DNA of 64,000 nt from Brevinematales bacterium. GTDB lineage: Bacteria; Spirochaetota; Brevinematia; Brevinematales; GWF1-51-8. The position numbers and the translations under genes were made by a program. Under the pieces are notes generated by a model. The model saw nothing but the letters and a program-made list of their open reading frames with translations, had not been told where the DNA came from and searched no databases. Shown here one piece after another: positions 4,319-62,568 of this stretch; the stretch's first letter is position 1, and each line of letters begins with the position of its first letter. The stretch spans positions 1 through 64,000 of the forward strand of contig JABLXV010000003.1 of NCBI GenBank assembly GCA_013177895.1, given 5' to 3'.

Positions 4319-7300
4319 ATGGTTAAGGTTAATAATGGCTACAAAGACCTGAAGGAATACATTGATCTCGCTTCTGATGTAGAAACCAAAGATATTGTTG
4401 AAACCATTCGTGAGCGTAAGAATGAGATTATGAAAACCGCAAAGACGGAAGGGCGTAAAGTGAAGAACGGATATTTTGAAATATCCTTTGCTCCGGATAA
4501 AACCGTATCGATCGCGGCATTGGCCGCTGATGAAATTTTCATAAACGAGAAGATAGTCAAGGCTCATCATAACGCGGTCAGCGTTGTCTATGACTATCTT
4601 AGTAAAAATCTTTCTTATTGCAAAGATGGCGGAAGTTATATAAAAGCGGAGAGTATTGAAGCATACCGGATCGAACACTTCCGAAGCCGGGAGAACGATC
4701 CCCATATTCACACTCATTATGTCATTATGAATGAAGTCAATAATTCCGGAGTAAAACGCGCCGTGTCCAGGGGGTTCTATGATGAACTCTCTCTTGACCG
4801 GATGTATAATCATCAGTTGAATTACGAACTTCATAAAGCCGGTATAAATTCCTACATGGATAACGGGATTACTAAAATCAAAGGAATATCCGATAATGCG
4901 CAAATATACTTCTCAAAGTCAAAATTAAAAATGGATCTTCTCGGCCTTGAGTACGCGGAGAATAATATCGGGGACGAACTTACCGAGGGCGCTGCGGGGC
5001 GCATAAACGCACTGAGTTATGTGATGAATAAATCGGATAAATCCCTTACTCATTTATCGGATTTAAAGGAAGTATGGAATAAGGAGTACGCTGACCTTGC
5101 CGCGCAGGGTGAAGTGAAAAACGCTTATCTTTTAAAGCCCCAATCAAAACGATCTACTGACGAGATAAAACATCCTTTTTCCGGTGGACGGGAACTTGAA
5201 GATATTAATAATGTGGTCAGTCTTGCGATTAAAAATGTAGTGGACCGGCATAGTGTTTTTACTTTGGATAACGTTTTAGAAAGCGTCCGCAAAATATCTG
5301 AAGATGTGACAAAAACACCTTACGATATGAAACTGGTCGAGGAGGTGTTGAGTCGTAAGGGTCTTCGCATTGTGGATTATGCGACAAAGAATATCCGGGA
5401 TTCTTTAATCACTTATCCGTTGTATACCACGTTCGAGGAATGTAAAAAAGAGAAGGATATCATAAACTCGATCAATCTTTTTAAGAAGGGTGAAAGTAAA
5501 ATATTCATTGAGGAAGATGGGAAAGGGATTCCTGCTAAACTAAAATCATTCATTGATGAGTACAATAAATACTTTTACGATACATTCGGGAAAAGGGAAT
5601 ACCTGAACAAAGGGCAGAGGATGGCGCTAAAAGGCATTCTTTCTAAAGAGAAGTTTTGCGTAATGATCGGGGACGCTGGAACCGGTAAGACTAAACTGAT
5701 GAACGCGCTTAAATATATATCAGAGAAAAACGGATGGGTGATCGACGGCCTTGCGCATACCGGAGAAGCCTCGAAAGAATTAAGGTATCAGGGTATTGCG
5801 GCTCAAACAGTAGATTCTTTCCTTCATCAATATAAACACGCCGATGCAGATGTTTTATCGAAAGTATTGAATAACGAAAAACGAATACTGATAATTGATG
5901 AAGCGAGCTTTATTCCGAATAACACGTTTCTTACTTTGATGGAAAAAGCGCAGGCGATGGGTTACGAAAAAATCGTGGTCGTGGGAGATTATAAACAGTT
6001 GACGGCCATAAAATCCGGGAATCCTTTCCTTGTTTCAATATACAATACTGGTACAGATAAACTTCTTCGTCTTTCCCAGATCATGCGCCAGGAACAAAAC
6101 TCGATGTACGCCGAGATGACAAAATACATGGCGGATATCAATAATCTCAACATTCAGGATTTTATTAAAAAGATTGAAAAAATGGGTATTTATTACAAAA
6201 CGGAAGGCAGTACCGAAGATGGCGAACGTAATTTGAAAGACGCTTGGTCGGTCGTCGATAAGTTCAACGAAATACGGAATAAAAAAGGACAGATTGACAC
6301 TGTGCTTATTACCAAGACTCACAAAGATAAAGACCTTCTAAATGCTTTTGTGAGACAGACGCTTAAAGAGACGGATGAACTTCTTGAAAGCGGTCTTTCT
6401 GCTACGGTATACCGTCCGGTCGATATGACTATTGTTGATGTTTGCAGCATGAAAAGTTATTCTAACGGAATGAAACTCATTTTTCAGAATAACACTTTAG
6501 GTATTGAGCGCGGATCGATCGGTATTGTAAAACGTGTTGACGATGAGTTAGGGATTATGGATATCGAGTTTTATAAAGACGGCGTTTACAGCCAGCGTCG
6601 CTTAAATCGTAAAGACTTACTTCATATTGAGGACGTTCAGGTTTATGAAAATCGGCAGCTCGCACTCGGGTTGGGTGACATAATCATGTTTCTTAAAAAT
6701 GAAAAAAAACTCGGTCTTGTCAATGGAGATACTGGCGTGATAGAAGCGGTCGAGAAAGATGAAAAGAACGGCTTTTATATCTCGGTCCATGTTCCTGGAA
6801 AGAAGAATACTGTAAAGATTAATCTGGATAGCCTGTATAACTATAATTTTTTCGATTACGGATATGCCAGTACGATTATGAAAACCCAGGGTAAAAGTAT
6901 CAATAAGGTTATTCTGTATCTTCCCAGCGACGGGTATTATAACTACAATGATCTTTATGTCGCGTTCAGCCGCGGCCGGGAAGAGATACATATATTTACC
7001 GACGATATCGATAAACTCATGTACAACCTTCAGAAAGTCTACCTCAAGGAGAGTATTTTACTGACACGTTTATCCGGGAAAAAATCAGAGTATCTCCAAA
7101 AAGAAGCAGATCGCTTGTGCGGTCTATATGAAGTTCAGGCGGAGGAAGGTAAACTTAAATACAAAGACCTTGTTCCTTTAATTGAAAAAGAGATTTTCAA
7201 AAAGATTAAAGACGGTGATATATCCCACAGTTTTCGCCGGAATTTTGAAGATCGTGAAATGATACTGGATAGATTATTCAAAGAACGGGTGCAAGAAGTC

Positions 7301-16173: not shown

Positions 16174-19100
16174 ATGGATATCAAAGAATATGTATCTTTA
16201 GTTACAAGAAGGTTTTCAGGCGGGAATACCACAGAGCATAGTTTCCGTACTGATCTTCAGGGTTTACTATCTTCCTTGTTTCCTCATTTAACCAATACTA
16301 ACGAACCAAGAAGGCAAAGCTGCGGAGCTCCGGATATCATCATTCAGAATAAGGTTATTCCCGTCGGGTATATCGAAACAAAAAAAATCGGTCTGGATTT
16401 ATCGATCGAGGAAAAATCCGATCAGATGAAGCGGTATAAAAACAGTCTGGAAAATCTTATCCTCACGGATTATCTTGAGTTCAGATTTTACCGGTTCGGA
16501 AATCCGGTACATAAAGTATCGATTGGAAAGGTTCAAGGGGATAAAATCGTTCCGTTACCTGATAACTATGATGACCTTAAAAATCATCTCATAGATTATT
16601 CCATGTTTGCCGGTCAGACGATTAAGTCTTCGGAAAAACTCGCGCAGATCATGGCTAAAAAAGCGAGATTGATGGAAGATGTATTCAAAAAGGCTTTAGA
16701 GGATGATAAAACGGAAGAGAGCTCGCTGTTTTCTCAATATGAGGCGTTTAAGGACGTTCTCATCCATGACCTGAATATTGAAAAGTTCGCCGATATCTAC
16801 GCCCAGACGATCGCTTACGGGATGTTTACCGCCCGGCTTCACGACACGACACTCGACACTTTTTCCCGGCAGGAAGCCCGCGAACTTATCCCGCAGTCTA
16901 ACCCTTTTCTCCGCAGCCTTTTCGATTATGTATGCGGCGCCGAATTGGATAGCCGCGTGGCATGGATCGTGGATGACCTGGCCGACGTCTTCCGTGCTGT
17001 TGACCTTAAAGACCTTCTTTCCGGGTTTGGAAAGACTTCCGGAAGGGAAGACTCTTTTATTCATTTCTATGAAACTTTTTTGAAAGAATACGATCCGAAG
17101 TTAAGGGAAAAAAGAGGGGTATATTACACTCCGGAACCGGTCGTCAATTTTATTGTCCGGGCAGTCGATAGTATTTTGAAAAGTGATTTTCAGTTTTCTA
17201 AAGGACTTGCTGATATTTCAAAAGTAACCGTGAAAATGGATGTTCCAGGCTATGTTAATAAAAAAACTAAAAATCTTGCCGAAAGAGAGCTTCATAAAAT
17301 ACAGATTCTGGACCCGGCTGCCGGTACAGGAACATTCCTCGCGGAAATAGTGAAGCAAATCTATTCCGGATTTAAGGGGCAGGAAGGTTTGTGGCCGGAA
17401 TATGTCAATAAGGAATTAATCCCGAGATTGAACGGTTTTGAAATTCTAATGGCCCCGTACACGATTTCCCATCTCAAATTGAGCTCTTTATTCGCTGAAA
17501 CAGGGGCAAATCCAGATCAAAGACTCCGGGTATTTCTTACCAATTCCCTCGAAGAAGCACATGAACATACAGGCACTATATTTGCCCGTTTTCTTTCGAT
17601 GGAAGCCCAGGAAGCGAATAGTGTAAAAAATGAACGTCCTGTTATGGTAGTGATCGGAAATCCGCCGTATAGCGCTGTCTCGTCCAATATGGGAAAATGG
17701 ATATGCGGACTTATTGAGGATTATAAGTATGTAAATGGGGTACATTTTGGTGAAAAAAAACACTGGCTTCAGGACGATTATGTCAAATTTTTACGTTTCG
17801 GCGAGCATTTTATTGAAAAGAATGGTGAAGGTATTCTCGCATTCATTAATAATCACGGTTTTTTAGATAATCCTACATTTCGAGGAATGCGCTGGCATTT
17901 ACTTCAAACTTTCGATAAAATATTTATCCTTGATCTACATGGAAACTCCAATAAAAAGGAAAAAGCTCTGGATGGAGGAAAGGATGAAAACGTTTTTGAT
18001 ATTCAGCAGGGTGTAAGCATCAATATATTTATAAAAACCGGTAAAAAGAAAAAAAGTGAGTTAGGGAAGGTTTATCATTCTGACCTGTTTGGAGTAAGGA
18101 ATGATAAATATGCTTTTCTTTGGAATCATTCCTTAAACTCCATCCCATATAACGAAATGCAATATTCTGATCCTTATTATTTCTTTTCACCGAAAGATTT
18201 TGCTTTAAAGGATGTATACAATTTGGGTTTTATGATAAATGAATTATTCCCAATTTATGTAACCGGAATAGTTACTATGGGTGACGGGTTTATTATTGCG
18301 GATAGTAAAAAAGAACTTGAAAAACGGTTGAATGACTTTATAAATTCGCCGATTACCGATAAAGAAATGAATGATAAATACGACTTGGGTAAGAATTATT
18401 CTAAATGGATTATCGAAAACAAAAATAAGATTATTATTGATCCAGCAAAGATTGTGCAGATTGATTATCGTCCTTTTGATAAAAAATGGACTTATTATGA
18501 TAACAAACTTATTTGGAGATGGCGCAATGAAATTATGCAACACTTTCTTAATGGTGATAATTTTGGGTTAGTTATTCCTCGACAAGCTATAACTGACACA
18601 TGGTCTCATGTTCATATATCAAGAAATATTATAGATAATAGAATTCATTTTAGTAATAAAGGAATTCCTATTATTTATCCACTCTATCTCTACGCCGCGG
18701 AAGGGGCGCTACCCGGTCAAACCGAGAGGACGGCGAACCTCAATATGGAGACCGTCGCGAAGATTGAGGAGAAACTGATGATGAAATTCGAGCAAGAGAA
18801 AACAGATATTTCGGTCGCCTTTGCTCCTACCGATCTCCTGGACTACATCTACGCCGTCCTTCACTCACCGTCGTACCGTGAGAATTACAAGGAATTCCTG
18901 AAGATCGATTTCCCGCGGGTACCGTATCCCGACGATAAAGATAAATTTTGGAAACTGGTAAAGCTGGGTAAAGAACTCAGGGAGTTACACTTGATGGAAA
19001 GTCCCCGACTGGATGAATTGGTTACAAAATACCCGACTGTGGGTGACAATAGAGTTGAAAAGGTCGAGTTCAATAACGGAAAGGTATGGATCAATCCTGA

Positions 19101-19293
19101 ACAATATTTCGACGGGGTTTCGCTTGAAGCATGGGAGTTTTATATCGGTGGATATCAACCGGCGCAAAAGTGGTTGAAAGACCGGAAAGGAATGGTTTTA
19201 TCCGTGGAGGATATTCTTCATTGGCAAAAGATTGTCGTCGTTATGAATGAAACTATTAAAATTATGCGGGAAATCGATATTTTAATAATATAA
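16174..19293 (+). CDS. Fused restriction endonuclease-adenine methyltransferase (type IIG/ISP-like, 1039 aa)
   Basis: One polypeptide cuts and methylates DNA. A PD-(D/E)xK nuclease site is visible near the N-terminus (APDII at about 52, then YIETKK at about 66-71). The N6-adenine methylase follows: GVYYTPEPVV near 314, motif I DPAAGTGTFL near 380, catalytic motif IV GNPPY near 495. The C-terminal 400 residues resemble the target-recognition part of type ISP enzymes (YRPFDKKW, then PLYLYAAEG). There is no helicase domain, so it is closer to a type IIG arrangement. It is a single-gene unit with its own terminator and no separate methylase or specificity gene nearby. The recognition sequence cannot be read from this. 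Confidence 0.88.
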   Translation: MDIKEYVSLVTRRFSGGNTTEHSFRTDLQGLLSSLFPHLTNTNEPRRQSCGAPDIIIQNKVIPVGYIETKKIGLDLSIEEKSDQMKRYKNSLENLILTDYLEFRFYRFGNPVHKVSIGKVQGDKIVPLPDNYDDLKNHLIDYSMFAGQTIKSSEKLAQIMAKKARLMEDVFKKALEDDKTEESSLFSQYEAFKDVLIHDLNIEKFADIYAQTIAYGMFTARLHDTTLDTFSRQEARELIPQSNPFLRSLFDYVCGAELDSRVAWIVDDLADVFRAVDLKDLLSGFGKTSGREDSFIHFYETFLKEYDPKLREKRGVYYTPEPVVNFIVRAVDSILKSDFQFSKGLADISKVTVKMDVPGYVNKKTKNLAERELHKIQILDPAAGTGTFLAEIVKQIYSGFKGQEGLWPEYVNKELIPRLNGFEILMAPYTISHLKLSSLFAETGANPDQRLRVFLTNSLEEAHEHTGTIFARFLSMEAQEANSVKNERPVMVVIGNPPYSAVSSNMGKWICGLIEDYKYVNGVHFGEKKHWLQDDYVKFLRFGEHFIEKNGEGILAFINNHGFLDNPTFRGMRWHLLQTFDKIFILDLHGNSNKKEKALDGGKDENVFDIQQGVSINIFIKTGKKKKSELGKVYHSDLFGVRNDKYAFLWNHSLNSIPYNEMQYSDPYYFFSPKDFALKDVYNLGFMINELFPIYVTGIVTMGDGFIIADSKKELEKRLNDFINSPITDKEMNDKYDLGKNYSKWIIENKNKIIIDPAKIVQIDYRPFDKKWTYYDNKLIWRWRNEIMQHFLNGDNFGLVIPRQAITDTWSHVHISRNIIDNRIHFSNKGIPIIYPLYLYAAEGALPGQTERTANLNMETVAKIEEKLMMKFEQEKTDISVAFAPTDLLDYIYAVLHSPSYRENYKEFLKIDFPRVPYPDDKDKFWKLVKLGKELRELHLMESPRLDELVTKYPTVGDNRVEKVEFNNGKVWINPEQYFDGVSLEAWEFYIGGYQPAQKWLKDRKGMVLSVEDILHWQKIVVVMNETIKIMREIDILII

Positions 19294-54763: not shown

Positions 54764-55204
54764 ATGATAGAAGTACGCTGTCTTGTCGAAAAAGTGGAAG
54801 AAACCGAAAACGGGTACGTCATTCACCTTTACTCGTCGGATATCCGGGAACTCGATCTATCGAAAGGAAAGACCGTGTTTCTTCAGATACCGGAACGTCT
54901 TGCCACAAACGACATGAAAGGGCTTTACAAGCAGTTTCTCCGGGATTATGCGATGCCTCATTATCAGGTCGAGTATCCCGAATGGACGGAAAAAGACATT
55001 GAAAATTACTGGAAAGCCTCTTTCGGAACGACTAAGTCCGTAAAAGATATGGAAATCCCGGAGTTTAGCCGGTATTTCGAGTTTTGTATCTCAAAATCTT
55101 GGGACGACGTAAGGGCGCCCATCGATCTTTTCGAGCAAAAACGTAAAGAAGCCTCGGATAGAAAAAAACAACTTCAGGAAGTAAATCATGCAAATCCTGT
55201 ATGA
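54764..55204 (+). CDS. Hypothetical protein (146 aa)
   Basis: Not recognised. The first 50 residues look like a beta-rich domain (IEVRCLVEKVEETENGYVIHLYS, then KTVFLQIPE); the rest is helical with several tryptophans (EWTEKDIENYWKAS). AAGGAGAG lies upstream. Its end overlaps the SNF2 helicase gene by 17 bases, so the two are translationally coupled and probably act together. Confidence 0.65.
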   Translation: MIEVRCLVEKVEETENGYVIHLYSSDIRELDLSKGKTVFLQIPERLATNDMKGLYKQFLRDYAMPHYQVEYPEWTEKDIENYWKASFGTTKSVKDMEIPEFSRYFEFCISKSWDDVRAPIDLFEQKRKEASDRKKQLQEVNHANPV

Positions 55205-56798
55205 CGGCGATATTTTCACGGCGCAGGCTACGATCAATGACGCGGAATACCTTACCGAAGCGGGATTTTTATGGAATTCCGCTAAACGGGTTTACTGGAC
55301 GGATAATAAGGATATCGCGTTTAAGCTCGCAGGGTACTTTCATCCTGATGTAGAGGATATGATAAAAAAGAAAGAAGAGAAATCAAAACTTCTCGTCCGG
55401 GAAAGCGCTGTGATCTATTCCGATTATGCGGTTCCTTCTCCGAACGGGAGAAACCTTCTCCCGTTCCAGCGCGCCGGTGTGGAATTCGCCATGAAACGCG
55501 AGAACACCCTGATCGCCGACGAAATGGGGCTTGGTAAAACCGTCGAAGCGATCGGGGTTATCAACTGTATAAAGCCTTCTACTGTCCTCATCCTTTGCCC
55601 GGCTATTGTGAAACTCAACTGGCAGAAGGAACTTCTCCGGTGGACTATTCCCCTCTTTAACTACCGGATTTCCGTTGTCTATGGGGAATCGAAAACACAT
55701 ATTGAAATCGGGAATAATTCCATTACCATTGTAAATTATGATATTCTCGCCTATCATGTGCCGGTCCTTCGTAAAACTACTTTCGGCCTGATTATTGTCG
55801 ATGAGAGCCATTATATCAAAAACAAGACCGCGCAGCGGACGCGAGCCGCGCTGAAGCTCAAGGCAAAGCGTAAAATATGCCTGACCGGTACGCCGGTTAT
55901 GAACCGCCCGCACGAGTTATGGGCGCAGCTTAAATTCCTCGAAGCCCCCAAACTTCCAGCGTATTACCCGTTTATCTATGAATATGCCGGTGCTTACCGC
56001 GATAATTACGGCATCAAATTCGACCCGAAAAATATTCCGTTTTATAAACTATCCGAGTATCTCCGTACTACGGTTATGATCCGGAGATTAAAAAAAGATG
56101 TTCTCAAGGAACTCCCGCCTAAACGAAGACAGGTGATAGAGATTGAAATTACGGATGTTGAAACGGTAAATTTAGTCGAAAAGGAATGGCAAGAGTTCGA
56201 GAAAATGTCGCGTATCCGGGATCTCCGTGAAAGATTGTCCAATACCCGAGACGAACACGCGGAAACGGAATTCCGTGAACAAATCAAGCAGCTCCAAGAG
56301 AATATGGAGTCTGTTCATAACATTTTCGTGAGCAATCATAATATTGGAATTTCAAAAATTCCTTTCGCGGTACACCTAATCCGTGATATGATGGAAAACG
56401 TCGAGAAAATAGTTATATTCGCCCATCATACTGATGTTATCCTGGCTTTAAAGGATAAACTGAAACCCTTCAATCCGCTCGTACTGATCGGTTCGATGAA
56501 TCAAGGTGAAAGGCAATACAATATCGACCTTTTCCAGAATACGGACCTTCACCGCGTCATTATCTGCTCTATCAAGGCAAGCGGCCTCGGGATCACTTTA
56601 ACCCGCGCTTCTACCGCTGTATTCGTCGAGGAATCCTGGTCTCCGGCAGAGCTCCAGCAGGCGGAAGACCGGCTTCACCGGATTACTCAACTGTCATCGG
56701 TGAATATTTATTACCTTCTCCTCAATAATTCTCTTGAAGCACATATCGCTAAATCGAATATCGAAAAGCTGGAAATGATCGAGGGTATTTTGGATTAA
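55188..56798 (+). CDS. SNF2-family DNA helicase/translocase (536 aa)
   Basis: An ATP-driven duplex DNA translocase. Motifs in order: Q-like LLPFQRAGVEFA, Walker A DEMGLGKT (about residues 111-118), DEXH box VDESHYIKN (about 204), LTGTPVMNRP (about 234), and C-terminal QAEDRLHRITQ (about 492-502). The N-terminal ~90 residues (FTAQATINDAEYLTEAGFLWN) resemble the small domain found before some SMARCAL1-like helicases. It lacks the extra domains of chromatin remodellers. Context suggests DNA repair or establishment of incoming DNA. Confidence 0.9.
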   Translation: MQILYDGDIFTAQATINDAEYLTEAGFLWNSAKRVYWTDNKDIAFKLAGYFHPDVEDMIKKKEEKSKLLVRESAVIYSDYAVPSPNGRNLLPFQRAGVEFAMKRENTLIADEMGLGKTVEAIGVINCIKPSTVLILCPAIVKLNWQKELLRWTIPLFNYRISVVYGESKTHIEIGNNSITIVNYDILAYHVPVLRKTTFGLIIVDESHYIKNKTAQRTRAALKLKAKRKICLTGTPVMNRPHELWAQLKFLEAPKLPAYYPFIYEYAGAYRDNYGIKFDPKNIPFYKLSEYLRTTVMIRRLKKDVLKELPPKRRQVIEIEITDVETVNLVEKEWQEFEKMSRIRDLRERLSNTRDEHAETEFREQIKQLQENMESVHNIFVSNHNIGISKIPFAVHLIRDMMENVEKIVIFAHHTDVILALKDKLKPFNPLVLIGSMNQGERQYNIDLFQNTDLHRVIICSIKASGLGITLTRASTAVFVEESWSPAELQQAEDRLHRITQLSSVNIYYLLLNNSLEAHIAKSNIEKLEMIEGILD

Positions 56799-56851: not shown

Positions 56852-56880
56852 TTGGACTATTTAATATATTGTGATATAAT
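56852..56880 (+). promoter_or_regulatory. Promoter for the DarB-like gene
   Basis: TTGGAC, 17-base spacer, TATAAT (56875-56880). A second -10-like TGTTATAAT lies at 56828-56836. Confidence 0.6.
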
Positions 56881-56913
56881 TTTAGTAAATACTTTTTTTA
56901 CGGAGCGGGGAAA

Positions 56914-59900
56914 ATGAGTAAGAAAAGCGATGATATGAATCTCTTCGGAGATTTTTTGTTCGTATTCGACGACGATACGGATGCGCAGGAAGCTAAAAAG
57001 AAGGTTAAAACAGTCGTCAAACGGGAAAAGAAGCAAGGTGCAGAGGAATTAGGTCTATTCCAAGAGGAGGATATACATGGAAGAAGAACTGAAACTTTCG
57101 ACGCCGCTCGAACTCCAGACCGAACGGCACTGGAAGAAATATCGTCCCAAAGCGTATCAGGAGCTCGTGAAGAACGGTACGCTGATCGTGACGATCAAGA
57201 AGGTATGTCAGGAAGCGATGGACGAAGTCCTGGAACTCGAAACGAAAACCGGGATGAACAGGATCGACGCCGAGGGCGAAGTGTATCCCAGAACGGTCTT
57301 TTTACCACCGGAGAAGCAGCCGAGATAAAGGAGTTTCTTGAGGACAAAATCCAGATCGTCCATGTTACCGGCGACACTTTCCGCTCCGGCGGAAATCTCC
57401 GGAACGGACATACCGACGATCGCGGGAATTACCGGATTACTTCCGATGATCAGATTGGTTTTGGCGGTAAGGTTACAAAATTTAATAATAACTTCGAGGC
57501 TATTTCTATCCTGAAAAAACTCGAAGAAGAAGGAAGAAAAGCTAACCCGGACGAACAGAGTAAACTCGTCCTTTACACCGGATGGGGCGGATTGGCCGAA
57601 GTGTTTCACTTAACCCCTACCCCGGAATGGAAAGAACGCCAGGATAAACTACGCGCCTTATTGACAAAAGAAGAATATTTATCCGCCGAACGTTCTACCA
57701 TTAACGCGCATTATACTTCCACGGAAGTCGTGAATAAGATATGGGATATCGTCCTCAAGCTCGGTTACAACGGCGGTCCGACACTCGAACCGGCCTGCGG
57801 AACCGGGCTTTTTTTCGGGTCCCGGCCTTCCGGCGTTCCCGTGGAAATGCACGGTATCGAACTGGATAGTCTTTCCGGAAGGATCGCACGCCAGCTCTAT
57901 CAGTCCGCAAGTATCCAGATCGCAGGGTATGAAACAATCAGAATGCCGGAAAATACCTATAACCTTATCATTTCTAATGTTCCTTTCGCTGATATCAAGC
58001 CGTATGAAGACCGGAACGTCCGTACCCCTGGTATCGAAACTAATAAATATTCACTGCATGACTTCTATTTCCTTAAATCCCTCTACGGACTTCGCGAGGG
58101 CGGCGTCATTGCTTTTGTGACTTCCCGGTATACGATGGATAAACAGGACGATGAAGTTCGACGAAAAATAGCGGAATCCGCCGACCTGATCGGCGCTTTC
58201 CGGCTCCCGGATATCGCGTTCAAGGGAATTGCCGGTACGGAAGTGATTACCGACATATTATTCCTTCAAAAAAGAAATCCTGAAAAGGAAATGTCGGAAT
58301 TGACTAAAAGTTTTCTCGATCTTTCGCCGGTCAATATTACTCATCCGGACGGCACACAGAAAGAAATTCTCATCAATAACTATTACACGCTCCATCCTGA
58401 AATGATACTCGGAGATAACGGCCTGACCGGTAAGATGTATACCAAGTATGATTACAACGTGACTTCGGATTCGGGCGTGTTTCAAGAAGCGTTAAAGAAA
58501 GTCGATCAGTTCTTCCCTTCCGGTATTATGAACGTCATTATCGACAAGCGTATAGAAGAAATGACCCGCTCCGTACCTATCAGTTTCGACCGGCTTGAGA
58601 AACTCACCGTGGGTATGCACGCGGTCGGCGACGACGGAAAAGTGTACTATAAAGATTCATACACCGGGCAGGTTAAACTTCACGAATTCTATGATAACCA
58701 AACGAAAAACAGTAAGAATATCGATAAACTGCTGCGGATGATCGATATTCGGGATACCACGTTAAAAGCGATTGACAGCTTCTATAACGATAACACAGTC
58801 GCGTCGAAAGAGAGTGTCAACCGGCTGAACCGGATTTATGACAGTTTCGTTATCAAATATGGATACCTGAATGATCTTGCGAATAAGAAATCGTTCTTTG
58901 AAGACCCTTACGCCTCCCTTCTTTTGTCCCTTGAAAAAACAGAGGAAGCGACGGGTAATATCCTGAAATCGGACATATTTAATGGTGTTGCTTTTCAGCG
59001 AAAGGATCATATCACGAAAGCGGACAGTTCGCGCGACTCCATGCTTCTCTCCCTTTCCCGGTATGGTAAACTGGATTTCGATTATATGTCTTCGCTTACC
59101 GGAGAACCGAAAGAGAATATTGTAAAGGAACTTAGAGATACAGGCTATATTTATCCTGACCCCGAAGAATATCTTGCTTCCGGCAGAGTGATCTATCGCC
59201 CTGCGGAAGAGTATCTTTCCGGGAACGTCCGGGAAAAGCTCCGTCTTTCGGAAAAGGCTTGTCTGAAGGATCGTGATGAATTCGGACCGAATGTGGACGC
59301 CTTGAAAAAGGTAGTACCCGCGGATATCGCTCCGGAAGATATTTTTATTAAACTCAGTTCCCCGATCGTCGGGGCTAATCATGTGGAACAGTTTATCCGG
59401 GATTTACTCACTCCTGATATGTATAACCCGGAAGGGCTCCGGGTAAATGTGGTACACTTAACCGAAATCGGGAAATGGGAAGTAAAAATATCCGGTGTAT
59501 CTCCAAGCGTACTGGAAGGAAAATACGGTACTACCAGAATGCCTTTTGATAAGGTTATCAACCATATCCTGAACGGCACACCCGTAAAAGTCCTCGATTG
59601 GGAAGGTTCAGGAAAAAACAGGACTTCCAAGCCTAACCCCGACGCTACCGCGGAAGCTGAATTGAAAGTGGAAGCGGTCAATACCAAGTTTATGGAATGG
59701 ATATGGCAAAGTCCCGAAAGAACCCAAGATATCGTAACCAGGTATAATGAAGTTTTCAATTCGTATGTCGAACGGAAATATATCCACCCCGAAAGAATCC
59801 TGAATCCGAAGGCTACGATCAATTTCCACGGCTGCGCTTTTCCTCACCCTCTCCGCTCAAACCAGTCCGACGCGGTGTGGCGTCAGCTTCAGGCGAAGAA

Positions 59901-62568
59901 CACTATGCTTGCACATTCGGTCGGGGCCGGCAAGACCCTGGAGATAATTATCGCCGTTATGGAACGAAGACGCCTCGGGTTATCCAATAAACCGATGATC
60001 GTCGTCCCTGATCATTTAATCGATCAGTGGGGTAAGGCGTTCAGGCAAGCCTACCCTTCCGCTAAAGTTCTCGTCGCCGACGATATGAACTGGAACGGAA
60101 ACAAGAGAAAAACTTTTATCAATAAGATCGTGACCGGGGATTGGGATTGTATCATCATCCGGCAGCATTCCTTTATTAAAATCCCTATGAGTGAAGCGTA
60201 CCAGAAAGAATTTTTCGAGAATAAGATCGGCGAGTACAGGAATATGCTGGAAAGCCTCGATAGACAGGATGGGAGTGACCGGACAAGAAAGAATATTGAA
60301 GATAAGATATTGAAATACGAGCAGAAAATCAAAAGCCTTGCCGATGTCAAGCGCGACACCGGAGTTCTTGAATTTGAGAAACTCGGTATCGACTACCTTG
60401 CGATCGACGAAGCCGATATTTTCAAGAACCTTGAGTTTACTACCCAGCTTGAAAACGTTCGCGGGCTTGGTACGAAGACGGGGAGTGAACGAGCTCTTGA
60501 TATGTACATGAAGGTAAAGTTTATCCAAAGTATTGACGGCGGTATCACTTTCGCAACCGGGACTCCCGTAAGTAATACGCTCGTCGAAGCCTACACCATG
60601 CAGCGTTTTCTTCAGCCCGAGGTTCTACGGGCCCGCGGTATCGAAGCGTTCGACGAGTGGCATAGAATGTTTGCGGAAACTACTCAACAACTGGAACTCA
60701 ATAATTCCGGTACGAATTACAAAGCGGTTACCCGTTTCAGCCGTATTGGAAACCTGCCGGAACTTCTGACTTCTTTACGCATGACATGGGATATCCGGAC
60801 CGCCCAGAACCTTGAAGATGAAGGTATCCTTGTTCAAGGCGTCAATCTTCCCGTCATGCACGTTAAGAATGTGGATGCGCCCTCTACCCCTATTTTAAAA
60901 TCCTACCTTCGTTTTCTTCAAAAAAGGGAAGAAGACCTTGAGAAATCGAAGAAGACGAATAAGAGTGTTCCTTTTAAAGCTAAACAGGATAATGTACTTT
61001 CCATCATAACCGATGGGAAGAAGGCTTCCGTCGATATGCGGCTTATCAATCCCGCTCTCCCGGATCATCCTCAAAGTAAACTCAATAAGGCGGTCGAGAT
61101 AATCTATACCGCTTACAAGGAACATGAAGATAAACGACTGACAACCGCGGTATTTTTCGAGAAACCCCGCGCTTTTGAGGAAGATGAAAACACCGGAAGT
61201 AAAACCCTTCTTTTCGACGGTGTAAAAGATATTATCAAAAAACTGATCGATAAAGGCGTAAAACCCGAGGAAATCGGCGATATCCGGGATTACGACACTT
61301 ATGAAGAAAAACAGGAACTTTTTGAAAAAGTAAACGAAGGAAAAGTCCGGGTTATCTTCGGTTCCGCTGAAAGCATGGGAGCCGGTACGAATATGCAGAG
61401 ACATCTAAAAACCCTTATTCATGTCGATGCGCCCTGGCGCCCGCGCGACGTTGAGCAGGAAAACGGTAGAGCTCTACGTCCGGGAAATACGAATAAGGAT
61501 ATCGAAGTATATAACCTTGTCACCAAAGGGTCTATCGATACGGGACTTTGGAATATCCTCGATGTAAAATCTAAAGCGATCTCGCAGATCATGTCCGGAG
61601 GGGATAACGCTTCGCGCGATATGGAAGAGGAGTACTACGGGAGCGTCAAAGAATTGAGTATCGAAAATCCTATTCTCAAAGAAGCGGTAGAGCTCGATAC
61701 GTCCCTGAAAAAACTCCGGCACCAGGAGAAGGGGTTTTTGTCCGAAAAAGGACACGCTATCAATAAGATCAATCAACTGATGAACGGATTTACCGGTATC
61801 AAGTACCGTGAAAAAATTATTAAGGCTATCGAATACGATATTGAAAATCGTCCTGAAAAAAAGAATGATAAAGGGGAAGATATCTATAGGATTGATATTA
61901 AAGGGACTGTTCATACCGAAAGGAAGAACGCCGGTACGCAGCTTATAATGATAGCGGACAGGCTTTTCCAGAAATCTAAACGTTCCGGGTCCACCGAAAG
62001 CGAAGTTATAGGCGAATACTTGGGTCATAGCCTTGAAATAACCGCAAACACATTCTTTAGTGAAGATATCCCGGATCATAAGGCCGATATCCTTGTTTAC
62101 AGTAAATCCGATCCTGAAATATTTTATAAAGTAGGAATTCACTCAAAGAGCGATATCGTGGGTATTACGACTTCGTTATCCAACTTGATTTATAACCGGC
62201 TTGAGACTGATCTTCAGAAACAAAAAACAGAGATTCAGAAAAATATGAACGAGATCGAAAACTACAAGAAATTATCCGAAAGTGAATTTCCAAAAGCTCA
62301 AGAATTGCAGACTAAACAGGAGCGGTATACCGAAGTTATGAGTTTACTCAATGCTGAAAAAAGTAAAAGGGGCCCTGAAAAGCTGTACGAGCATGATATT
62401 CCCTGGGAGATTCTTAATCAGCTTGATTCTGATAGTATCAAAGAGTGTGTTCATGAGTATTTGAATGAATTTTATGGATCTAAAACTCCAAGAATTGATT
62501 TAGGAGAATCAGAAAACAAGCAGAAAGATTTAGGATGCGATTCCCCTGGAATAAGTATAAATATGTAA
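56914..62568 (+). CDS. DarB-like methyltransferase-helicase (1884 aa)
   Basis: A giant 'polyvalent' protein of the type found in conjugative elements and phage P1 (DarB), thought to protect incoming DNA from restriction. N6-adenine methylase motifs: LEPACGTG (about residue 291) and NVPF (about 355), a variant of NPPF. SNF2-like helicase motifs: SVGAGKT (about 1003), DEADIFKN (about 1165), ATGTPVSNT (about 1215), AGTNMQR and QENGRALRPGN (about 1490-1520). A coiled coil follows near 1750-1815. Residues about 55-138 are a low-complexity R/D/E/S-rich stretch whose DNA also encodes a TnpV-like protein in another frame. GGAGCGGGG precedes the ATG. Confidence 0.88.
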   Translation: MSKKSDDMNLFGDFLFVFDDDTDAQEAKKKVKTVVKREKKQGAEELGLFQEEDIHGRRTETFDAARTPDRTALEEISSQSVSGAREERYADRDDQEGMSGSDGRSPGTRNENRDEQDRRRGRSVSQNGLFTTGEAAEIKEFLEDKIQIVHVTGDTFRSGGNLRNGHTDDRGNYRITSDDQIGFGGKVTKFNNNFEAISILKKLEEEGRKANPDEQSKLVLYTGWGGLAEVFHLTPTPEWKERQDKLRALLTKEEYLSAERSTINAHYTSTEVVNKIWDIVLKLGYNGGPTLEPACGTGLFFGSRPSGVPVEMHGIELDSLSGRIARQLYQSASIQIAGYETIRMPENTYNLIISNVPFADIKPYEDRNVRTPGIETNKYSLHDFYFLKSLYGLREGGVIAFVTSRYTMDKQDDEVRRKIAESADLIGAFRLPDIAFKGIAGTEVITDILFLQKRNPEKEMSELTKSFLDLSPVNITHPDGTQKEILINNYYTLHPEMILGDNGLTGKMYTKYDYNVTSDSGVFQEALKKVDQFFPSGIMNVIIDKRIEEMTRSVPISFDRLEKLTVGMHAVGDDGKVYYKDSYTGQVKLHEFYDNQTKNSKNIDKLLRMIDIRDTTLKAIDSFYNDNTVASKESVNRLNRIYDSFVIKYGYLNDLANKKSFFEDPYASLLLSLEKTEEATGNILKSDIFNGVAFQRKDHITKADSSRDSMLLSLSRYGKLDFDYMSSLTGEPKENIVKELRDTGYIYPDPEEYLASGRVIYRPAEEYLSGNVREKLRLSEKACLKDRDEFGPNVDALKKVVPADIAPEDIFIKLSSPIVGANHVEQFIRDLLTPDMYNPEGLRVNVVHLTEIGKWEVKISGVSPSVLEGKYGTTRMPFDKVINHILNGTPVKVLDWEGSGKNRTSKPNPDATAEAELKVEAVNTKFMEWIWQSPERTQDIVTRYNEVFNSYVERKYIHPERILNPKATINFHGCAFPHPLRSNQSDAVWRQLQAKNTMLAHSVGAGKTLEIIIAVMERRRLGLSNKPMIVVPDHLIDQWGKAFRQAYPSAKVLVADDMNWNGNKRKTFINKIVTGDWDCIIIRQHSFIKIPMSEAYQKEFFENKIGEYRNMLESLDRQDGSDRTRKNIEDKILKYEQKIKSLADVKRDTGVLEFEKLGIDYLAIDEADIFKNLEFTTQLENVRGLGTKTGSERALDMYMKVKFIQSIDGGITFATGTPVSNTLVEAYTMQRFLQPEVLRARGIEAFDEWHRMFAETTQQLELNNSGTNYKAVTRFSRIGNLPELLTSLRMTWDIRTAQNLEDEGILVQGVNLPVMHVKNVDAPSTPILKSYLRFLQKREEDLEKSKKTNKSVPFKAKQDNVLSIITDGKKASVDMRLINPALPDHPQSKLNKAVEIIYTAYKEHEDKRLTTAVFFEKPRAFEEDENTGSKTLLFDGVKDIIKKLIDKGVKPEEIGDIRDYDTYEEKQELFEKVNEGKVRVIFGSAESMGAGTNMQRHLKTLIHVDAPWRPRDVEQENGRALRPGNTNKDIEVYNLVTKGSIDTGLWNILDVKSKAISQIMSGGDNASRDMEEEYYGSVKELSIENPILKEAVELDTSLKKLRHQEKGFLSEKGHAINKINQLMNGFTGIKYREKIIKAIEYDIENRPEKKNDKGEDIYRIDIKGTVHTERKNAGTQLIMIADRLFQKSKRSGSTESEVIGEYLGHSLEITANTFFSEDIPDHKADILVYSKSDPEIFYKVGIHSKSDIVGITTSLSNLIYNRLETDLQKQKTEIQKNMNEIENYKKLSESEFPKAQELQTKQERYTEVMSLLNAEKSKRGPEKLYEHDIPWEILNQLDSDSIKECVHEYLNEFYGSKTPRIDLGESENKQKDLGCDSPGISINM
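57077..57328 (+). CDS. Nested TnpV-like small protein (83 aa)
   Basis: This frame lies wholly inside the DarB-like gene, in a different frame. It has a strong AGAGGAGG ribosome-binding site 7 bases before the ATG. TERHWKKYRPKAYQELVKNGTL and the following acidic helix resemble TnpV proteins of mobile elements (pattern: basic helix, then RP..Y..L...G.L, then a helix rich in A/E). In the long frame the same DNA gives an R/D/S-rich stretch without domain character, which suggests that the small frame is the one under selection here. Either both are made, or the long protein's N-terminal linker was created over this gene. Confidence 0.55.
   Translation: MEEELKLSTPLELQTERHWKKYRPKAYQELVKNGTLIVTIKKVCQEAMDEVLELETKTGMNRIDAEGEVYPRTVFLPPEKQPR

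Follow-up and report, generated by a model that had tools for sequence, protein, structure and literature searches.

Positions 57077 to 57328 of the window (the whole 64,000-nucleotide stretch analyzed here, from a Brevinematales bacterium) very probably code for two proteins at once, a reading to which we assign a probability of about 0.9: a small protein with four predicted helices and, in another frame, the linker of a giant DarB-like polyvalent protein. The small gene (57077–57328, 83 aa, ATG start), recognized from its open reading frame and translation, its homologues and structure prediction, lies in frame +1 relative to the giant gene (56914–62568, 1884 aa), which is identified by its open reading frame, PHROG 10089 and Pfam domains. 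It is a complete out-of-frame inclusion on the same, forward strand, to which all features below belong. The dual-coded stretch corresponds to residues 55–139 of the giant (57076–57330), a linker predicted to be disordered and examined with AlphaFold and stop counts.

Each of the two genes has its own translation signal. The nested gene carries the Shine-Dalgarno sequence AGGAGG (57065–57070) with a 6-nt spacer to the ATG at 57077, and the giant gene a GGAG core (56902–56905) 8 nt 5' of the ATG at 56914; both sites are predicted to be unpaired. The initial annotation, which had placed an 83-codon frame with a strong ribosome-binding site over residues ~55–138 of the long protein, was exact in its coordinates and in this signal. 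It also offered, as the alternative to overlapping coding, that the real N-terminus of the giant lies elsewhere, possibly downstream of 57328. In its own frame the giant could begin at ATG 56914, ATG 56935, TTG 56956 or ATG 57205, after which no start codon occurs before TTG 57592 and GTG 57601, both of them beyond the conserved TGWGG motif. With no further start codon from 57205 up to the conserved domain, a giant start 3' of 57328 is excluded, and any production of the conserved N-terminal domain therefore requires that ribosomes read across the small gene; the giant frame is moreover open in all relatives that bear the nested gene. ATG 57205 was considered as the giant start and rejected, since half of the small gene would still be overlapped and an AAGG lies just one base 5' of it. 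Upstream, a second, small SNF2-family helicase gene (55188–56798) directly precedes the giant, and the intergenic region between them holds a promoter-like site, TGGACT-16-TATAAT with an extended −10 TG (56853–56880), which is weak alone as one was found against 1.2 expected in shuffled sequences.

The giant consists of a short N-terminus, the disordered linker, LPD36, an adenine methyltransferase and a SNF2-type helicase. It matches PHROG 10089 (‘DarB-like antirestriction’) with 1364 bits over residues 13–1818. Its conserved N-terminal part (57427–58488), comprising LPD36 with TGWGG and the start of the methyltransferase with NVPF, served as the query for relatives, while the SNF2-related helicase domain (PF00176, residues 988–1175, 59875–60438) and Helicase_C (PF00271, residues 1426–1524, 61189–61485) both score above the Pfam cut-offs. 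The alignment of giants has invariant GWGG and NxPF columns, so that LPD36, a gamma-class methyltransferase and a SWI2/SNF2 helicase occur on one chain. This is the architecture of the DarB-like polyvalent proteins surveyed by Iyer et al. 2017 (PMC5512222), including the LPD36 position and GXGU motif given there. For the archetype, DarB of phage P1, protection of the element's DNA from type I restriction is established according to work cited in that survey (PMC5512222). Homology of the window giant to other giants starts at about residue 170, past the overlap. AlphaFold pLDDT is ~40–56 in the overlap segment against >90 from about residue 170, and disorder-promoting residues (G, P, S, E, D, Q, R, K, N, T) make up 80% of the overlap as opposed to 60% in the remainder of the protein.

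The surrounding element encodes a TrwC relaxase, F-type TraC and TraG and a Rep3 initiator, and is a conjugative plasmid. The same plasmid that carries this DarB-like counter-restriction gene also encodes a single-chain type ISP restriction-modification enzyme at 16174–19293 (Type_ISP_C, N6 methylase). A separate observation concerns the linkers of the giants. A sliding-clamp-binding-like motif (QLDLF, QLSLF or QVDLF, with some variants such as QIELL) occurs within the 350 aa before LPD36 in 11 of 110 giants, at ~18 times the rate found elsewhere in the protein; it was noted in the giant N-termini of loci L031–L035, L042, L043, L048 and L134, and the window giant has only the looser forms MNLFG and QNGLF.

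Relatives were collected by the conserved domain of the giant and not by the small open reading frame (L061 and L062 excepted), and profiles of the small protein were then run against six-frame translations of all loci (16,038 ORFs). All 55 matches of the window-type profile at E ≤ 1e-3 were nested in a giant in frame +1. A profile of canonical TnpV gave 29 nested matches, again in +1, and two standalone genes downstream of giants. After one profile iteration a nested gene was recognized in 87 of the 106 phage and plasmid DarB-like giants, placed as in the window just upstream of the LPD36-methyltransferase domain; the relative frame is +1 in every nested case, the sole match in another frame (+2) being a tandem gene of Acaryochloris. 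Addition of named phages, including Agrobacterium phage Atu_ph08, Vibrio phage VvAW1 and, weakly, Burkholderia phage BcepIL02, brought the count to 91/110, and protein searches added PEp14, Pavtok, SopranoGao, LASTA, POI1126, PBC5 and Microcystis phage Mwe-JY07. The nested pair is spread over Bacillota, Acidobacteriota, Pseudomonadota phages and a cyanophage, and nesting is a general property of the DarB-like family, far broader than the initial annotation could see.

A recognizable nested homologue is absent from 19 of the 106 giants (they include some Pseudomonadota and Enterococcus plasmids) and from P1 DarB, in which only ~70 residues precede the conserved part and leave no room for a nested gene. 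Not every DarB-like enzyme therefore requires the small protein. Close relatives of the window locus were not found among 100 relatives, 393 genomes of the phylum, a plasmid collection (searched as DNA) and genome contigs, and one distant relative within the phylum, L151, carries a nested ORF (E 1.4e-7). Sampling of Acidobacteria for further relatives gained little, and searches of viral contigs with a single protein or the Bacillota profile were unsuccessful.

Selection on the small frame was assessed by counting differences between close relatives by codon position of the giant, with 17 pairs alignable in the overlap. Downstream of the small gene the giant's codon positions 1, 2 and 3 differ at 14, 10 and 43%, position 3 having the peak in 18/18 pairs. 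Inside the overlap the values are 30, 19 and 16%, and position 1, which is the third position of the small gene, peaks in 16/17 pairs (binomial P ~3e-7 against 1/3, with independence only approximate as two groups give two pairs each). The switch in phase coincides with the boundaries of the small gene. In the Vibrio-phage group, column variability of ~0.9 upstream, where sequences are unalignable, drops to 0.37/0.17/0.07 exactly from the start of the small gene, and conservation runs from there on into the methyltransferase; the small gene and the methyltransferase-helicase are therefore passed down as a single block, with varied upstream sequences attached to it. These patterns show purifying selection on the nested protein, and the demonstration of dual selection comes from relatives, as the window's own copy has no close relative. 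The initial annotation had suggested codon-position rates as a check and held that relatives conserving the residues of the long frame but not the small frame would speak against its reading; the opposite was found.

Initiation at the nested ATG was examined with the start taken as the last ATG before the domain, chosen blind to any Shine-Dalgarno sequence. A Shine-Dalgarno core is present at 55 of 85 nested starts (65%) and at 745 of 7789 control ATGs (10%), the controls being further ATGs of that frame within these giants. This enrichment supports, though it does not prove, translation of the relatives' nested genes from their own starts.

The giant's frame is maintained as well. Synonymous codons of the small gene were resampled with the codon usage of the same giant, and over 65 dereplicated overlaps ~290 stops would be expected in the giant frame (mean 4.5 per locus, with 9–14 at some single loci) where none is observed. 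In the window 5.6 are expected and none is seen, the frame remaining open in 0.09% of resamplings (P 0.0009). By comparison, both standalone TnpV genes carry six stops apiece in the corresponding relative frame. The overlap segment of the giant is in addition more hydrophilic than the nested protein requires (disorder-promoting fraction 0.78 vs 0.70), and the absence of stops together with this excess argues for selection on the host frame, which otherwise bears no clear amino-acid constraint. That last property would suit the idea that the small gene alone is real, with the giant expressed as separate pieces and its open frame a composition accident. We regard this as very improbable given the missing stops and, in the window, the lack of any start codon from the end of the overlap to the conserved domain; furthermore, virion proteomics of the Bcep22-like phage JC1 recovered a 4515-aa DarB-like protein with 51 unique peptides (PMC9144972).

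The converse resampling, in which the amino acids of the giant are held, leaves the nested frame of the window open in 41% of trials and is uninformative there, and it is the relatives that carry the argument for the small ORF. Together with a direct Pfam TnpV score far below the cut-off, this figure is what could be said for the 83-codon ORF being open by chance across low-complexity coding sequence. Such an origin is nevertheless refuted by the relatives, through homology, position, frame, substitution phase, Shine-Dalgarno site and predicted folded structure, and we consider its likelihood negligible. Homologues, substitution phase and the open giant frame in relatives instead bear out true overlapping coding, one of the two readings first offered. 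Substitution phase and simulation likewise support the earlier view that the R/D/E/S-rich stretch of the giant arises because its frame runs across a gene under selection in another frame.

One locus is at odds with a continuous giant frame. In Sinorhizobium phage PBC5 as deposited (L148, AF448724.1, 1–6309 and 5733–12206) a frameshift upstream of the nested gene takes orf33 in frame into the small domain, where it stops, and the methyltransferase-helicase is a separate ORF. PHROG 938, labelled ‘endolysin’, ends with the small domain, which is probably due to this PBC5 frameshift. From these records it could be supposed that the small domain is the C-terminal end of the giant's upstream part, reached by programmed frameshifting, while ribosomes that stay in frame yield the full giant. 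We hold this improbable, because PBC5 is the only frameshift-like case among the examined loci, the frame being continuous elsewhere, and is explicable by a sequencing error or one real frameshift. The small ORF, moreover, has its own start, usually ATG, with the Shine-Dalgarno excess described above, and in the window just 54 residues precede the overlap.

The initial annotation called the small gene TnpV-like, a label that holds as remote profile-level kinship and fails as direct identity. Against PF14198 (TnpV) the window ORF scores 13.5 bits, below the 27-bit gathering cut-off, and it gave nothing above threshold in Pfam, PHROG or NCBIfam. The nested genes of gut and Bacillota elements, in contrast, are canonical TnpV with matches as strong as 2.2e-44, and overall 21 of 47 nested proteins match PF14198 at E ≤ 0.01. 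Phage members range from chance level to E 5e-5, several at 16–24 bits, and intermediate members bridge the window-type and canonical groups. HHalign of the window-type against the canonical nested profile gave E 1.2e-4 over 55 columns with a probability of 55%. The kinship thus appears real but remote. Unlike TnpV in its usual setting, the window ORF has no N-terminal extension, is nested in a DarB-like gene and has no serine recombinase seen beside it. AlphaFold predicts four helices with a mean pLDDT of 86 and a core >90. A fold search of the PDB gave no match, DNA-binding proteins included, and PDB sequence matches to designed helical proteins and SNF7 were set aside as composition-driven. 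The best viral structure match is Q8W6J4_2 (TM 0.81), probably orf33 of PBC5 judging by accession ranges.

Frame bias was considered as the main cause of the universal +1 relation and rejected, since the two alternate frames would incur similar numbers of stops (4.9 vs 4.6 expected). Distances between small proteins correlate with those between giant domains (r=0.67, reached in 0/1000 permutations). The universal +1 and the correlated distances favour one ancient nesting event, which we consider moderately likely; the best reading is an ancient overlapping pair, probably of single origin, that moves together with the methyltransferase-helicase. Originally, the small gene may have stood just upstream of a methyltransferase-helicase gene, comparable to Acaryochloris today. 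The giant's frame would later have been extended upstream through it and so joined to other domains, the alternate frame of the small gene becoming the disordered linker. At present the small protein would be started from its own ribosome-binding site and the giant read straight through from 56914. On Acaryochloris plasmid pREC3 (L041) the TnpV-like gene (5595–5960) stands in tandem just upstream of the giant (from 5953) with an 8-base overlap. It is a possible model of the un-nested state and not an ancestor, since its relative frame differs.

The conserved linkage to the methyltransferase-helicase suggests that the small protein might be a partner of this enzyme, as a stoichiometric subunit, a chaperone or a regulator of counter-restriction; we put this forward tentatively, at somewhat less than an even chance. 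A partner made from the same mRNA as the giant would arrive and evolve together with it. The main rival to a partner role is that the nested gene is genuine but unrelated to the giant, an Xis-like or accessory mobile-element factor hitch-hiking in a tolerant linker. An Xis-like role, the sole one proposed for TnpV, has been postulated for TnpV of Tn4451 (PMC3158075). Standalone TnpV relatives, which show that the family also exists outside DarB-like genes, are found on small transposons and integrative elements, some adjoining recombinases, and the mobilizable elements that insert specifically into snf2 genes of Streptococcus suis ICEs also carry their own TnpV (PMC9815147). Hitch-hiking is nonetheless somewhat less likely than a partner role in our estimation, given that the nested gene stays with the LPD36-methyltransferase-helicase block across several phyla while the upstream sequence is replaced, that nested-protein distances track those of the giant, and that the small protein has no fold match to a DNA-binding protein. 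As snf2 is the gene family that hosts nested TnpV here, a link between the two kinds of TnpV is possible.

The pair resembles Rz1 within Rz, a same-strand out-of-frame embedded gene with both products functional that also occurs in Bcep22-like phages bearing DarB-like giants (PMC9144972). It differs from Rz1/Rz in that the window pair are different proteins, one of them a multidomain giant, and in that the overlap occurs across several phyla, in both plasmids and phages. No mention of TnpV, overlap, linker or disorder was found in the main text of the DarB-like survey (PMC5512222). No published description of the nested pair was found in a literature search limited to open-access texts. PHROG 24764 matches 12/47 nested proteins and PHROG 938 matches 20/47, and some gene callers have therefore predicted the small protein. 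PHROG 24764 is without assigned function, the ‘endolysin’ label of PHROG 938 is misleading, and neither records the nesting.

Most records annotate the giant only. In plasmids of Burkholderia vietnamiensis and Pseudomonas siliginis, PGAP annotates a small nested ORF and truncates the giant past the start of its homology. In loci L046 (NZ_CP020393.1) and L047 (NZ_CP099597.1) PGAP places the nested ORF at 5684–5989 and starts the giant at 6082 and 6124, respectively, past the homology onset at locus position 6001; the late starts are an annotation artefact, as the overlap rule forces them. Both small ORFs are in frame +1, with an HHalign probability of 1.6% to the nested family. The record of Pseudomonas phage Itty13 (L147, 3987–16322) annotates large opposite-strand ORFs and not the DarB-like giant.

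In prokaryotes, long nested genes are regarded as rare and transient, and annotation programs leave them out. In the present case, roughly four in five members of a large phage and plasmid protein family retain one. Because of the nesting, many giants are mis-annotated, being truncated or missing the small gene. At close to even odds, if slightly below, one ancient read-through joined two genes, the pair spread across phyla, and the DarB-like counter-restriction machinery has in the four-helix protein an overlooked subunit, which annotation systematically drops or retains by truncating its host gene. The family offers a strong natural data set of two proteins sharing the same DNA, one folded and one disordered, and points to an unnoticed small component beside a widespread counter-restriction enzyme. 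It also suggests a route by which giant multidomain proteins may get stitched together.
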